Source of the DNA: Variovorax sp. TBS-050B
Lineage (GTDB): Bacteria > Pseudomonadota > Gammaproteobacteria > Burkholderiales > Burkholderiaceae_C
NCBI RefSeq assembly: GCF_029893635.1
Contig: NZ_JARXYR010000002.1
Location: 1,401,001 to 1,465,000 of the forward strand
Reading direction: 5' to 3'
DNA: 64,000 nt
Of the stretch, positions 21,501-64,000 are shown piece by piece (positions within the stretch are counted from its first letter, which is position 1; every line of letters starts with the position of its first letter). A program made the position numbers and the translations under genes. The notes below the pieces were generated by a model. The model was not told the DNA's origin and ran no database searches. It was given only the letters and a program-made list of their open reading frames with translations.

Positions 21501-21559
21501 TGTGGATAAGGTTTTGACAAGTTAGAATGCAGGCCGCCTTGCAGCAGAGAATATCCACA
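21501..21559. promoter_or_regulatory. DnaA boxes upstream of dnaA
   Basis: A perfect DnaA box (TGTGGATAA, 21501-21509, i.e. TTATCCACA on the other strand) and an eight-of-nine match (ATATCCACA, 21551-21559) lie 50-110 bases upstream of dnaA, in a locally A/T-rich stretch (CAATACATATACCAAAAAA). They fit autoregulation of dnaA and could also be part of an origin. Only two boxes are visible and there is no TAG repeat, so I rank the region at 50.4 kb higher as oriC. The rest of the 21282-21609 gap holds the rpmH leader and promoter. Confidence 0.75.
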
Positions 21560-22989: not shown

Positions 22990-23085
22990 CCCCCGCACGA
23001 ATGTCATCGGGAATGCGCCTCGCAACAGCGGAGAATGGCGCCTTACCAGCGGATTCGAAGAGATAGAAGAGAAGAGGAAGAAGAC

Positions 23086-24192
23086 ATGATCGTTTTGAAG
23101 GCAACCCAAGACAAAGTCCTCGCCGCGCTGCAGTCGGTGGCGGGCATCGTGGAACGGCGCCATACGCTGCCGATCCTCGCGAACGTGCTGATCCGCAAGA
23201 CGGGAGGGCAGATCCAGCTGACCACCAGCGACCTGGAGATCCAGATCCGCACCACGGCCGAACTCGGCGGCGACGAAGGCAACTTCACCACCACCATCGG
23301 CGCGCGCAAGCTGATCGACATCCTGCGCACCATGCCGGCCGACCAGACCGTGAGCCTCGAATCGAGCGCGAGCAAGCTGGTGCTCAAGGGCGGCAAGAGC
23401 CGCTTCACGCTGCAGTCGCTGCCGGCGGAAGACTTTCCGCTGGTGCAGGAAGCCGCCAACTTCGGTCCGGTCTTCAGCGTGCCGCAGAAGACGCTGAAGG
23501 ACCTGCTCTCGCAGGTCTCGTTCGCGATGGCGGTGCACGACATCCGCTACTACCTCAACGGCATCCTGTTCGTGGCCGAGGGCAAGCAGCTGAGCCTGGT
23601 CGCGACCGACGGCCACCGCCTGGCCTTCGCTTCGGCCACGCTCGACGTCGAGGTGCCGCGCCAGGAAGTGATCCTGCCGCGCAAGACCGTGCTCGAGATG
23701 CAGCGCCTGCTGTCCGATGCCGAGGGCGCGATCGAGATGCAGTTCGCGAACAACCAGGCCAAGTTCAGCTTCGGCGGCATGGAGTTCGTCACCAAGCTGG
23801 TCGAGGGCAAGTTCCCCGACTACAACCGCGTGATCCCCAAGAACCACAAGAACTCGGTCACGCTCGGCCGCGCGCCGCTGCTCGCGAGCCTGCAGCGCAC
23901 CGCCATCCTGACCAGCGAGAAGTTCAAGGGCGTGCGCCTGAACATCGAGCCCGGCACGCTGCGCATCGCATCGAACAACGCCGAGCAGGAAGAGGCGCAG
24001 GACGAGCTCGACATCGACTACGGCGGCGACGCCATCGAGATCGGCTTCAACGTGACCTACCTGATCGACGCCCTCGCGAACATGGGCCAGGACATGGTCA
24101 AGCTGGACCTGGCCGACTCGAACAGCTCGGCGCTGCTGACCATCCCCGAGAACTCGACCTTCAAGTACGTCGTGATGCCGATGCGGATCTGA
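23086..24192 (+). CDS. dnaN: DNA polymerase III sliding clamp (beta subunit)
   Basis: A complete 368-residue beta clamp with three repeated folds. It begins MIVLKATQDKVLAALQSV and ends with the conserved YVVMPMRI. The ATG at 23086 has the AGAGGAAGAAG ribosome-binding site just upstream; an in-frame ATG at 23035 lies in the spacer and is unlikely to be used. It follows dnaA by 96 bases and is closed by a strong terminator. Confidence 0.98.
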   Translation: MIVLKATQDKVLAALQSVAGIVERRHTLPILANVLIRKTGGQIQLTTSDLEIQIRTTAELGGDEGNFTTTIGARKLIDILRTMPADQTVSLESSASKLVLKGGKSRFTLQSLPAEDFPLVQEAANFGPVFSVPQKTLKDLLSQVSFAMAVHDIRYYLNGILFVAEGKQLSLVATDGHRLAFASATLDVEVPRQEVILPRKTVLEMQRLLSDAEGAIEMQFANNQAKFSFGGMEFVTKLVEGKFPDYNRVIPKNHKNSVTLGRAPLLASLQRTAILTSEKFKGVRLNIEPGTLRIASNNAEQEEAQDELDIDYGGDAIEIGFNVTYLIDALANMGQDMVKLDLADSNSSALLTIPENSTFKYVVMPMRI

Positions 24193-49500: not shown

Positions 49501-50283
49501 TCATGCGGGGGGTGGGAGTTCTTCGTTGAGTGCGTAGCCGGTGCCGCGCAGCGTGCGGATCGGCTCGACCTCGGGGGCGATGGCCTTGAGCTTGGCGCGC
49601 AGGGTCTTCACGTGGGCGTCGACGGTGCGGTCGAAGCTGTCGCTGGCGTCGTCCCAGACCAGCTGCAGCAGCTCGTCGCGCGTGAAGACGCGGCCCGGGC
49701 GCTGCACCAGCAGGCGCAGCAGGCCGTACTCGTAGCGCGAGAGTTCGAGCAGGCGGCCGTAATAGCGGATCTGCATGCGCTCGGTGTCCAGCGCGAAAGG
49801 CGTTGCGGGGGGCTGAGCGGGCGCAGGCGGCGCCGCGGGCGCATTTTGAGGGGGGCCCCCGTGGCCGGTTGCCACGGGCGCGCCTGGGGCCGCTCGTGCG
49901 CTGCGCCGGAGGATGGTGCGCACCCGCGCCACCAGCTCGCGCGGCGAAAACGGCTTGGCGACGTAGTCGTCGGCGCCGAGTTCCAGCCCCACCACGCGAT
50001 CGATCTCGTCGCTGCGCGCGGTGAGGAACAGCATGGGCACCTCCGCGCCGCCCTGCGACTGGTTGAGCGCACGCAGCCGCTTGAAGAGCTCGAAGCCGTT
50101 GAGATCGGGCAGGCCCACGTCGAGGATGGCGAGCGCCGGCGCTTCCTTGGCGAATTCGGCGATCGCCGCTTCCGCGGTGGCGCACCAGACCGGCGTGAAG
50201 CCGTCGCTGCGCAGCACGTACTGCAGCGTGTCGGCAATGCCCGATTCGTCCTCGGCGATCAGGATCCGCGGTTTGAAGCTCAT
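49501..50283 (-). CDS. creB: Response regulator CreB
   Basis: A 260-residue OmpR-type regulator. Receiver domain with ILIAEDESGIADTLQYVLRSDGF, the phospho-acceptor Asp in LAILDVGLPDLNGFELF, LFLTARSDEIDR and KPFSPRE; a C-terminal winged helix with RYEYGLLRLLVQRPGRVFTRDELLQ and GTGYALNEEL. Similarity to E. coli CreB covers both domains. An Ala/Pro linker (about residues 135-165) is longer than in E. coli. CreB binds the cre-tag TTCAC-N6-TTCAC, of which a perfect copy is upstream of creD 6.3 kb away. Confidence 0.9.
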   Translation of the reverse strand: MSFKPRILIAEDESGIADTLQYVLRSDGFTPVWCATAEAAIAEFAKEAPALAILDVGLPDLNGFELFKRLRALNQSQGGAEVPMLFLTARSDEIDRVVGLELGADDYVAKPFSPRELVARVRTILRRSARAAPGAPVATGHGGPPQNAPAAPPAPAQPPATPFALDTERMQIRYYGRLLELSRYEYGLLRLLVQRPGRVFTRDELLQLVWDDASDSFDRTVDAHVKTLRAKLKAIAPEVEPIRTLRGTGYALNEELPPPA

Positions 50284-50852
50284 CCCCGGATGTTAGCGAG
50301 GCGGCATCGTGCGGCCGGCCCTCGCGGGACCCGTGGCGCCGTGGACACGGCGCGGCCCTTCGCGGCTTTTTTTCTTCGGCCGGGCGCTGGCTCCGTATTC
50401 TTCTCTTATCTCTTTTATTCAAATTAGTAGTAGTAGATAAGGGCAGCACCCGCCTGTGGACAGGCTGCTTTTTTCCTTCTGCGACAGTCACTTGTCATAC
50501 GTCTGTCACTGTGCGCAGCCGCGCTTCCGTGCTGTCGCGCCAAAAGGGACAACATCGCCGCGCCGGTCCGCCCTGTGGATAACCGCCCGCTTGTGCCGGA
50601 AATCTCCCCAGAGTTGTCCTTTGACAGCGTCGTCGAAATCTGCGAAAGACAACTTTGGTGGCAAGTAATCCATTGCCGCTTATTTGGGCAGACTGTAGAT
50701 TCGCCTTTCAAATCAAAGACTTGCAACGCTCTTACAAAGTAGTGCGAGTGTTATCCACAGAGTTGCCCAAGCTTTGTGGGGAGAACCGGCACCGGAACCT
50801 TCGGTGACCGGTCCGAACGAACCTTGTCCTTCAACCAGCGGAAATTTCGAAC
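50284..50852. other. Candidate chromosomal replication origin (oriC)
   Basis: This 569-base gap holds no gene. From left to right: an A/T-rich tract (50395-50424), four TAG triplets (50425-50436) that read 3'-GAT-5' away from the DnaA box, as in the DnaA-trio of the origin-unwinding element; a degenerate DnaA box TGTGGACAG (50455-50463); two perfect DnaA boxes TGTGGATAA (50574-50582) and TTATCCACA (50751-50759); and a consensus IHF site AATCAAAGACTTG (50711-50723). Genes on each side diverge (creB left, TerB-like right). This is the layout expected of oriC. It is 29 kb from dnaA, so confirmation by GC skew or initiation mapping is needed. The promoter for creB also must lie here. Confidence 0.7.
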
Positions 50853-51809
50853 GTGACCACTTCCGAGACCCGGGCCATCCTGACCCTCAGCCTGCTGGCT
50901 GCCTTCGCCGACGGCGACAAACACGAACGAGAACGCGCCGAGATCAAGCGCATCGCCGAAGGTCTGTCGCAGGCCGACGGCGTGAACCTGCCCACGCTCT
51001 ACCAGGACGTGCTGATGAAGCGCGTGTCGCTCGCCTCGGCCGCCGGCGAGCTCCAGAGCAGCGAATCGAAGCACCTGGCCTATGAAATGGCGGTCTGCGT
51101 CTGCGATGCCGACGGCACGCAGTCGGAGGCGGAGCGCATGTTCCTGGCGGACCTGCGCACCTCGCTCGGGCTCGATGCCTCGGCGGCGCAGTTCACGCAG
51201 CAGGCGGAGGCGATCGCCGCGGTGCCGGTCTCAACCGGCGCCGTGGCGGCGGCGGCGCCTGCGGCAGCGGTGGCCGGCGCGGCCGCGGCGGTCGACGGCG
51301 CGGAGATCGACAAGTCGATCCTGAACGCCGCGATCCTCAACGGCGCACTCGAACTGCTGCCCGAGACGCTTTCGACCATGGCCATCATTCCGCTGCAGAT
51401 GAAGCTGGTCTACGGCATCGGCAAGCGCTATGGCTACGAGCTCGACAGCGGTCATGTGAAGGACTTCCTCGCCACGGTCGGCGTGGGCCTGACCTCGCAG
51501 TACCTGGAGCAGGCGGGCCGCAAGCTGCTCGGCGGCCTGCTCGGCAGGATGGGCGGCGGCATGCTGCGCGGCCTCGGCAACCAGGCGGTGAGCTCCGGCA
51601 TGAGCTTCGCGTCGACCTACGCGCTCGGCCACGTCGCCAAGCGCTACTACGCCGGCGGCCGCACGCTCTCGACGCAGATGCTCAAGGACACCTTCGCCGG
51701 CGTGGTGCAGGAAGGCAAGGGCCTGCAGACGCAGTACCTGCCCGCCATCCAGGAAAAGGCCCGCACCCTCGACACCGCCAAGGTACTGGCGATGGTCCGC
51801 GGCGCCTGA
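50853..51809 (+). CDS. TerB-like/DUF697 domain protein
   Basis: A 318-residue protein. The N-terminal ~120 residues look like TerB (ILTLSLLAAFADGDKHERERAEIKRIAE, FADGD and D-x-D-G-x-x-x-x-E repeats such as CDADGTQSEAE that may bind metal), followed by an Ala-rich linker and a hydrophobic C-terminal DUF697-like region with IIPLQMKLVYGIGKRYGYEL and glycine-rich LLGGLLGRMGGGMLRGLG. The family is linked to stress and tellurite-resistance protein complexes; role unknown. GTG start with a plausible upstream GGAAA. It is the first gene to the right of the proposed oriC. Confidence 0.78.
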   Translation: MTTSETRAILTLSLLAAFADGDKHERERAEIKRIAEGLSQADGVNLPTLYQDVLMKRVSLASAAGELQSSESKHLAYEMAVCVCDADGTQSEAERMFLADLRTSLGLDASAAQFTQQAEAIAAVPVSTGAVAAAAPAAAVAGAAAAVDGAEIDKSILNAAILNGALELLPETLSTMAIIPLQMKLVYGIGKRYGYELDSGHVKDFLATVGVGLTSQYLEQAGRKLLGGLLGRMGGGMLRGLGNQAVSSGMSFASTYALGHVAKRYYAGGRTLSTQMLKDTFAGVVQEGKGLQTQYLPAIQEKARTLDTAKVLAMVRGA

Positions 51810-62668: not shown

Positions 62669-62760
62669 GGATTGCCCGTACAGCGGGCGCAGGCCGGCCC
62701 CGGCGATTAAAATCGGTGCCCCCTTTGCGCAGCGCACGCGTCAGTGGTGCGCCCCCTTTC

Positions 62761-64000
62761 ATGCTGTACCCCGAAGAATTCGATGTGATCGTCGTTGGCG
62801 GCGGCCACGCCGGCACCGAGGCCGCGCTCGCGTCCGCCCGCATGGGCGCCCGCACGCTGCTGCTGTCCCACAACATAGAGACGCTGGGGCAGATGAGCTG
62901 CAACCCGTCGATCGGCGGCATCGGCAAGGGCCACCTGGTGAAGGAGGTCGATGCGCTCGGCGGCGCGATGGCCATCGCGACCGACGAGGCCGGCATCCAG
63001 TTCCGCATCCTCAATTCGAGCAAGGGCCCGGCCGTGCGTGCGACCCGCGCCCAGGCCGACCGCGTGCTGTACAAGGCGGCGATCCGCCGGCGGCTCGAGA
63101 ACCAGCCGAACCTGAGCCTGTTCCAGCAGGCGGTCGACGACCTGATGATCGAGGGCGACCGGGTGGTGGGCGCGGTGACGCAGGTCGGCATCGCCTTCCG
63201 CGCGCGGGCCGTGGTGCTGACCGCCGGCACCTTCCTCGATGGCCGCATCCATGTGGGCCTCGACAACTACCAGGCGGGCCGCGCGGGCGATCCGCCGGCG
63301 GTGAGCCTGTCGGCGCGCCTCAAGGAACTGAAGCTGCCGCAGGGCCGCCTCAAGACCGGCACGCCGCCGCGGCTCGACGGTCGCAGCATCGACTTCTCGA
63401 AGTGCACCGAGCAGCCCGGCGACGGCATGCCGGGCGGGGCAGGGCCGATGCCGGTGTTCAGCTTCATGGGCCGCACCGACATGCATCCGCAGCAGATGCC
63501 CTGCTGGATCACGCACACCAATGCACGCACGCACGAGATCATCCGCTCGGGCTTCGACCGCAGCCCGATGTTCACCGGCAAGATCGACGGCGTGGGCCCG
63601 CGCTACTGCCCGAGCGTAGAAGACAAGATCAATCGCTTCGCCGACAAGGAAAGCCACCAGATCTTCCTCGAGCCCGAAGGGCTCACGACCAACGAGTACT
63701 ACCCGAACGGCATTTCGACCAGCCTGCCGTTCGACATCCAGTACCAGCTCGTGCGCTCGATGCCCGGGCTGGAGAACGCCCACATCCTGCGGCCGGGCTA
63801 TGCGATCGAGTACGACTACTTCGATCCGCGCGAGCTCAAGAGCAGCTTCGAGACGCGGTCGATCCAGGGCCTGTACTTCGCCGGGCAGATCAACGGCACC
63901 ACCGGCTACGAAGAAGCCGCGGCGCAGGGCCTGTTCGCGGGCATCAACGCGGCGCTGCAATGCCGCGGCGAGGCGCCCTGGCTGCCGCGCCGCGACGAGG
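62761..64000 (+). CDS. mnmG: tRNA uridine-5-carboxymethylaminomethyl modification enzyme MnmG (3' truncated)
   Basis: The frame starts at ATG 62761 ([22 protein letters not shown]) and is open to the right edge, giving the first ~413 of about 640 residues. It has the FAD-binding [35 protein letters not shown] [26 protein letters not shown] with the conserved Gly-Thr-Pro, and [21 protein letters not shown]. Works with MnmE on tRNA wobble uridine. It has no upstream partner; rsmG-parA-parB, its usual neighbours, would be beyond the window. Confidence 0.97.

Follow-up and report, generated by a model that had tools for sequence, protein, structure and literature searches.

The stretch of DNA analysed here (the window), 64,000 nucleotides of Variovorax sp. 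TBS-050B at C2:1401001-1465000, belongs to a genome of two contigs with 4,934,928 and 600,856 bases. It contains dnaA, dnaN, the first part of mnmG and a gene-free gap of 569 bases between divergent genes for a response regulator and a TerB-like protein, and this gap is the subject of the present work. A first-pass annotation, made from the sequence alone, had proposed the gap as the chromosomal origin of replication (oriC), on account of four TAG triplets, DnaA boxes and a site for integration host factor (IHF). The motifs and the 18-base distance between triplets and weak box were found again by direct reading (Table 1), and the gap with its divergent neighbours was confirmed from the open reading frames (ORFs). 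On the evidence set out below, positions 50284-50852 are very probably oriC of the main 4.93-Mb chromosome and a relocated copy of the family origin.

The gap is non-coding and holds, besides its two perfect DnaA boxes, several with two mismatches. In the window as a whole, six boxes with at most one mismatch are observed against 1.66 expected, a number that none of 100 shuffled sequences reaches, and TAGTAGTAG has two overlapping matches against 0.01 expected, with 0 of 100 shuffles having as many. Throughout the 5.54-Mb genome the perfect box TTATCCACA occurs seven times, three of them in the window (two in the gap, one upstream of dnaA); a reversed DnaA-box pattern, used as a control, occurs twice in the same genome. 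The lowest G+C (0.28) among the 63,951 50-bp stretches of the window belongs to those starting at 50391, 50392 and 50396, beside the TAG repeats. The IHF motif has a single occurrence in the window and at least one in 10 of 100 shuffles, and taken alone it is weak evidence. As a single strand, positions 50395-50470 fold with a z of -1.9, and 12 of 200 shuffles fold equally well.

By analogy with characterised origins, DnaA would bind the strong boxes at 50574 and 50751, and IHF would bend the DNA at 50711. Passing through the weak box at 50455, a DnaA filament would then be guided to the TAG trios on one strand, and the A/T tract (50395-50424) would melt, leading to helicase loading.

Table 1. 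Features of the proposed origin and of the dnaA region, in positions of the window.
Feature	Position	Strand	Remark
Perfect DnaA box upstream of dnaA	21501..21509	-	Probably promoter control
DnaA box with one mismatch upstream of dnaA	21551..21559	+	Pair partner of 21501..21509
dnaA	21610..22989	+	
dnaA-dnaN gap, coreless	22990..23085		96 bp; usual place of the core in the family
dnaN	23086..24192	+	Start from relatives; ORF list starts at 23035
Response regulator, left neighbour of the gap	49501..50283	-	Above NCBIfam cut-off for CreB
Gene-free gap, proposed oriC of the 4.93-Mb chromosome	50284..50852		569 bases, divergent flanking ORFs
A/T-rich tract, proposed unwinding element	50395..50424	+	G+C 0.23
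Origin core (match to profile R1)	50405..50515	+	C2:1451405-1451515, E 3.2e-26
Four TAG triplets, TAGTAGTAGTAG, as DnaA-trios	50425..50436	+	3'-GAT-5' from the box
DnaA box with two mismatches, AGTAGATAA	50432..50440	-	Overlaps last trio; absent from the first-pass list
Weak DnaA box, TGTGGACAG	50455..50463	-	Two mismatches to TGTGGATAA; 18 bases past last TAG
Perfect DnaA box, TGTGGATAA	50574..50582	-	
IHF site, AATCAAAGACTTG	50711..50723	+	All positions agree with the IHF consensus WATCAANNNNTTR
Perfect DnaA box, TTATCCACA	50751..50759	+	
TerB-like / DUF533 protein, right neighbour of the gap	50853..51809	+	No NCBIfam match
mnmG (gidA), first part	62716..64000	+	rsmG, parA and parB next, beyond the window

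Distribution of the core in genome, genus and family

With the gap as query, matches were obtained in 97 of 100 congeneric genomes, part of them by the core only. An alignment of 52 sequences including the window, from which 13 minus-strand matches had been excluded, was reduced to 41 distinct rows by removing exact duplicates and two array loci. All 41 rows conserve the four TAG triplets and the weak box (as TGTGGA.A.), and the two strong boxes at 50574..50582 and 50751..50759 are each perfect in 39 rows and within one mismatch in every row; the IHF consensus is retained in 31. The mean majority fraction is 0.83-0.88 across 50395-50790 and falls to 0.77 and 0.72 in the gap's outer parts. Conservation of boxes and TAG repeats in relatives had been put forward by the first-pass annotation as a check on its proposal, and it lends strong support to the claim that the gap, rather than the dnaA-rpmH gap, is the origin.

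For wider searches we used R1, a sequence-only profile of 114 positions built from 32 cores (window, gap, dnaA-dnaN, second, ectopic, tandem and Xenophilus copies); some genomes in the following counts also contributed cores to it. The own genome has one R1 match in all at E<=10, and this match is the candidate gap. At E<=0.001, R1 finds 97 of the 100 genomes of the genus and 211 of 250 genomes of the family, in 106 of 115 genera. A single core in the own genome, together with its wide presence in genus and family, is as expected of an origin. The smaller contig C1 (600,856 bases), a second large replicon, has no perfect DnaA box and no R1 match.

Among the 30 best R1 loci of the family, 18 lie in the dnaA-dnaN gap (including L270, judged from its dnaN side only), six beside a TerB-like gene and one in the rpmH-dnaA gap, and five have no probed gene adjoining. 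Four of the six TerB-gene loci belong to the own genus, the own genome included, and are accompanied by the response regulator; the other two come from another genus and have the core at the opposite side of the TerB-like gene. The dnaA-dnaN gap, which is also one part of the bipartite origins of Bacillus subtilis and Helicobacter pylori, is thus, among these loci, where the family usually has its core, and the origin of the window looks relocated. These placements bear on another reading as well, namely that the gap serves the CreB-like and TerB-like genes as a DnaA-controlled double promoter, as their divergence from it might suggest. The core is found, however, in the dnaA-dnaN gap, in the rpmH-dnaA gap and beside other genes, without the CreB-like and TerB-like genes, and we find the promoter reading hardly credible.

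Two or three R1 cores are present in 75 of the 250 family genomes. Several of the pairs listed are 0.4-10 kb apart, as in bipartite origins (for example G286:C1:1575088 and 1575460; G330:C13:18152 and 20270); the origins of B. subtilis and H. pylori are of this bipartite kind (PMC4403523). In three loci of other genera with no probed gene adjoining (L279, L284 and L271), the flanks map elsewhere near the own origin, at C2 ~1,479-1,481 kb and at ~34.7-36.7 kb of the window, as if the origin wandered inside this region. A plasmid or phage source of the core was also considered and rejected, positions 50395-50660 having no match at E<=0.001 in PLSDB and INPHARED, where records very near the own genome were possibly left out.

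Probable displacement of the core from dnaA

The position of the core relative to dnaA was followed in 40 congeners, picked mostly for few contigs or several matches. In 23 of them, the own genome included (group A), the core lies ~29-58 kb from dnaA, with ~29 kb for the own genome, and in 16 (group B) it lies directly behind dnaA; in G035, with dnaA on another contig, it could not be placed. All 40 carry a pair of parS sites with at most one mismatch, and in 23 of 23 group A genomes the core is situated between dnaA and parS. In the own genome the first parS site is inside the distal part of mnmG, and parS, rsmG, parA and parB are found ~14-18 kb from the gap. The first-pass annotation had argued that an origin in the gap would explain the distance between mnmG and dnaA. 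This argument does not hold, since G005, G008, G075 and G094 have a core behind dnaA and yet parS ~37-49 kb from dnaA.

We read the dnaA-dnaN gap in 22 of the 23 group A genomes and in five of group B. Its length is 69-124 bp in 20 group A genomes (96 bp in the own genome) versus 268-286 bp in the five of group B; G011 and G034, whose dnaA stop was not recognised, give no length. R1 detected no core in 21 of the 22 group A gaps, and in the remaining one, that of G066, a decayed core (E 1.3e-4). By eye, the group A gaps can be lined up at their A-rich end with the A/T tract in the origin of group B, and in the window positions 23052-23085, aligned in this way, look like an A-rich scar. The dnaA-dnaN copies of group B match the gap query only to ~345-362 of 569, the right half with the second strong box and the IHF site being missing.

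G075 has cores in both neighbourhoods, that of dnaA (behind the gene) and that of the window gap. The second core has a homologue of the window's response regulator ~0.9 kb off one side and a homologue of the gene at ~58 kb of the window on the other; the TerB-like gene was not found in the 4-kb stretch around it. In G026 the second core lies elsewhere, at a place that in own coordinates is ~62 kb left of oriC. In the simplest picture, the core would have been duplicated to a new place, the two copies would have coexisted, and the old one would then have been lost: a copy of the core would have arrived between dnaA and parS, G075 would keep both neighbourhoods, and the own lineage would have lost the dnaA-dnaN copy, leaving the 96-bp gap with its A-rich scar. 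With the dnaA-dnaN gap as the usual family place and the old copy lost, the separation of the origin from dnaA in the window genome is probably a derived state.

The region upstream of dnaA deserves separate consideration. Its two DnaA boxes are 50 bp apart, and the pair recurs in L234, L237 and L251, the three group B loci reaching that far, as well as in L249 of group A. Found in both groups, the pair accompanies dnaA wherever the core sits, and the conserved boxes at 21501-21559 probably serve autoregulation of the dnaA promoter. Since an R1 search of the window found no core near dnaA and the pair is independent of core position, the dnaA-rpmH gap was rejected as origin. The comparison with this gap, on which the first-pass annotation had relied, was correct in that it is very probably not the origin, but the informative comparison is with the dnaA-dnaN gap, the usual family place.

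Replication might nevertheless start at dnaA, in the dnaA-rpmH or dnaA-dnaN gap, with the element at 50.4 kb acting as a datA-like site that titrates or inactivates DnaA. In addition to the two upstream boxes, FtsK-orienting polar sequences (KOPS) fit slightly better at dnaA than at the gap (-39.2 vs -42.3), and datA, like the gap, is a stretch of non-coding DNA that binds DnaA and whose distance from oriC is conserved (PMC4585315). On the other hand, no R1 core lies near dnaA within the window and the genome has no other core to serve as oriC, while the upstream pair is present with or without a core at dnaA. The element, moreover, carries trios together with the tract that is richest in A/T in the whole window, and in many family genomes its homologue is the only match. 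We therefore regard an origin at dnaA as very unlikely.

Strand composition and the weighing of the gap

KOPS define clear chromosome arms, with 117 plus and 22 minus on the right and 19 plus and 78 minus on the left, and, if the origin is at the gap, the terminus they indicate near 4.0 Mb would give arms of ~2.55 and 2.39 Mb. Several observations, however, weigh against placing the origin there. The polarity of KOPS switches at ~1,347.7 kb, 104 kb left of the gap, with log-likelihoods of -25.1 at the switch, -39.2 at dnaA and -42.3 at the gap; the flip has dnaA as well as the gap on its right, with dnaA the slightly better fit. Cumulative GC skew, a check proposed by the first-pass annotation, has its minimum near 1.9 Mb in the samples taken (99 x 20 kb, every 50 kb), a signal too weak to be informative here, and an octamer score trained on the far arms has near-tied minima at ~1.42 and 1.45 Mb, gene direction dominating. 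The gap contains only two DnaA boxes with at most one mismatch versus a published program minimum of three, and its trio spacer of 18 bp exceeds a published program maximum of 16 bp. A scan of named genomes for the TerB-like protein (80 loci kept of 558 confirmed) placed a gap match upstream of its gene in only 33 of the 80 loci, two of which (L189, L197) hold tandem arrays; two Xenophilus loci (L206, L212) have the match downstream, and 45 have none. Finally, in a tree of 73 cores with 200 bootstrap trees, the TerB-site copies form no single clade, 46 standing together and two (L182, L185) with the tandem-array copies. With these copies in two places of the tree, the core may have moved more than once.

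Taken at face value, KOPS would favour an origin near 1.35 Mb of C2, at the flip: the log-likelihood at 1,347.7 kb is 17 units better than that at the gap, and the 100 kb left of the gap contain 10 plus and no minus KOPS. Near 1.35 Mb, however, there is no R1 match, and within the 324 kb examined the part left of the window has a single DnaA box with at most one mismatch, at 1,363,850. In G098, which has the same oriC, the flip lies still further away, near 300 kb and 277 kb left of oriC, so that it is no marker of the core, and KOPS close to an origin are perhaps under little selection. We consider an origin at the flip highly improbable. KOPS are shown to be unable to place the origin closely in the own genome and in G098. 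In both, the flip lies away from oriC, on its dnaA side (C2:1347-1451 kb and C1:300-577 kb, respectively), possibly through weak selection near the origin or as a memory of older origin places.

The two program limits concern searches. The oriC prediction program asks for three DnaA boxes (PMC4403523), a threshold that is a search filter and no definition of oriC. The published search for the basal unwinding system (BUS) calls for at least three contiguous trios no more than 16 bp from a DnaA box with up to two mismatches (PMC8287927); the gap has four contiguous trios. With a spacer of 18 rather than 16 and two boxes rather than three, the gap would be missed by strict use of either filter. 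The spacer between trios and weak box is 18 bp in 24 of the 32 cores, that of the window included, with an overall range of 14-19.

Additional cores and comparison with known systems

By R1 at E<=0.001, 62 of the 100 genomes of the genus have one core, 35 have two to four and three have none. The cores of the 35 lie within ~6 kb of each other in seven (tandem arrays or near pairs), ~30-34 kb apart in 10, and far apart or on different contigs in 16; G010 and G064 have them on two contigs. Single-contig genomes with extra cores are G037, G047, G066, G075 and G089; three others, G086, G093 and G098, have their copies together on a contig of chromosome size. An ectopic core 310-466 kb from oriC on the same contig is present in nine genomes (in kb: G037 362, G047 386, G098 371, G066 384, G089 466, G061 448, G045 396, G093 310, G016 401), on the dnaA side in all seven genomes with dnaA mapped. 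G086 has three ectopic cores 1.0-2.0 Mb from oriC, on both sides; these are L252-L254 (G086:C1:1190268, 6022327 and 6827774), on a 7.9-Mb contig.

Nine ectopic cores entered the tree, one each from G037, G047, G066, G089, G093 and G098 and three from G086, and they form one clade (support 100/99, 100% of the 200 bootstrap trees). Two close pairs aside, they are ~70-82% identical to each other, and none has the right half of the gap. All nine keep at least three TAG trios, and a strong box is within one mismatch in the five cores counted for it. Retention of trios and box at such low identity suggests that selection acts on the unwinding part.

One ectopic place is syntenic in G047 (L244), G089 (L246), G066 (L248) and G098 (L242), plus G037 (L241) through homology with G047. 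Its neighbours in the own genome are genes for a xylose-binding protein and a dehydrogenase E1 subunit; instead of a core, the own genome has at this place a gene that matches DUF7832 below threshold. The core orientation is opposite in G066 and G098 against the same flank. Candidate roles for this core are a dormant origin, a DnaA control site or a fossil. KOPS in G098 number 6 plus and 22 minus left of its ectopic core (206 kb), 3 plus and 8 minus from the core to 300 kb, and 21 plus and 11 minus at 300-577 kb. No divergent KOPS pattern is thus seen at that core, which counts against its long-standing regular firing.

Tandem arrays in G085 and G001 have units that include the right half. These arrays, L238 (G085:C1:319000-327000) and L239 (G001:C36:127500-134500), stand upstream of the TerB-like gene and comprise three full origin-like units plus partial ones at ~0.6-1.8 kb spacing. 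Variovorax oriC could be pictured as a duplicating and relocating module, with some multi-core congeners firing from more than one place or keeping a dormant or back-up origin; we hold this broader picture to be conceivable but rather unlikely. In the own genome, judged from its sequence, relocation is complete and a single core is left.

In the open-licence PMC literature we found no paper placing oriC in Variovorax and none on extra homologous origin cores in this family. As an origin, the gap belongs to a known type. The novelty lies in the relocation, followed here across relatives, and in the additional conserved cores of close relatives. An origin is thereby proposed for a genus in which the usual rule, to search beside dnaA, picks the wrong gap, and successive stages of its move are represented by genomes with the core in the old place alone, in both neighbourhoods or in the new place alone. 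Those relatives that have extra cores on a single chromosome offer a natural test set for the question whether a bacterial chromosome can have two origins, and they bear on what keeps an ectopic core conserved and how bacterial origins move.

Among known systems, Escherichia coli oriC likewise has its unwinding tract at one end and an IHF site between DnaA boxes, and lies tens of kb from dnaA with mnmG not far; the gap has fewer strong boxes, and its distance from dnaA goes back to a move documented inside the genus. With the dnaA-dnaN gap origins of the family it shares the identical core type (R1), but the core of the window is relocated and has an added right half with the second strong box and the IHF site. 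The BUS of B. subtilis and other origins (PMC8287927) presents the same elements in the same order (a DnaA box and a spacer, followed by three or more contiguous 3'-GAT-5' trios and an A/T tract), whereas the gap has an 18-bp spacer, beyond the limit of 16, and no tandem strong box beside the trios. By this analogy the gap would work like a BUS while falling outside the strict program-defined BUS set, its spacer being 18 bp. Like the putative double origins of PMC4403523, the multi-core relatives have more than one origin-like region per chromosome, with firing of both unproven. Those cases rest on box counts and Z-curves; the copies in relatives are mutually homologous, nine of them in one clade, and the own genome has one core. 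The datA site of E. coli is separate from the functional oriC and promotes hydrolysis of DnaA-ATP (PMC4585315). The ectopic copies of relatives resemble it in being DnaA-box sites outside coding sequence whose distance from oriC is limited, but they lack the right half with the IHF site and differ from datA in keeping trios and an A/T tract, which titration would not need.
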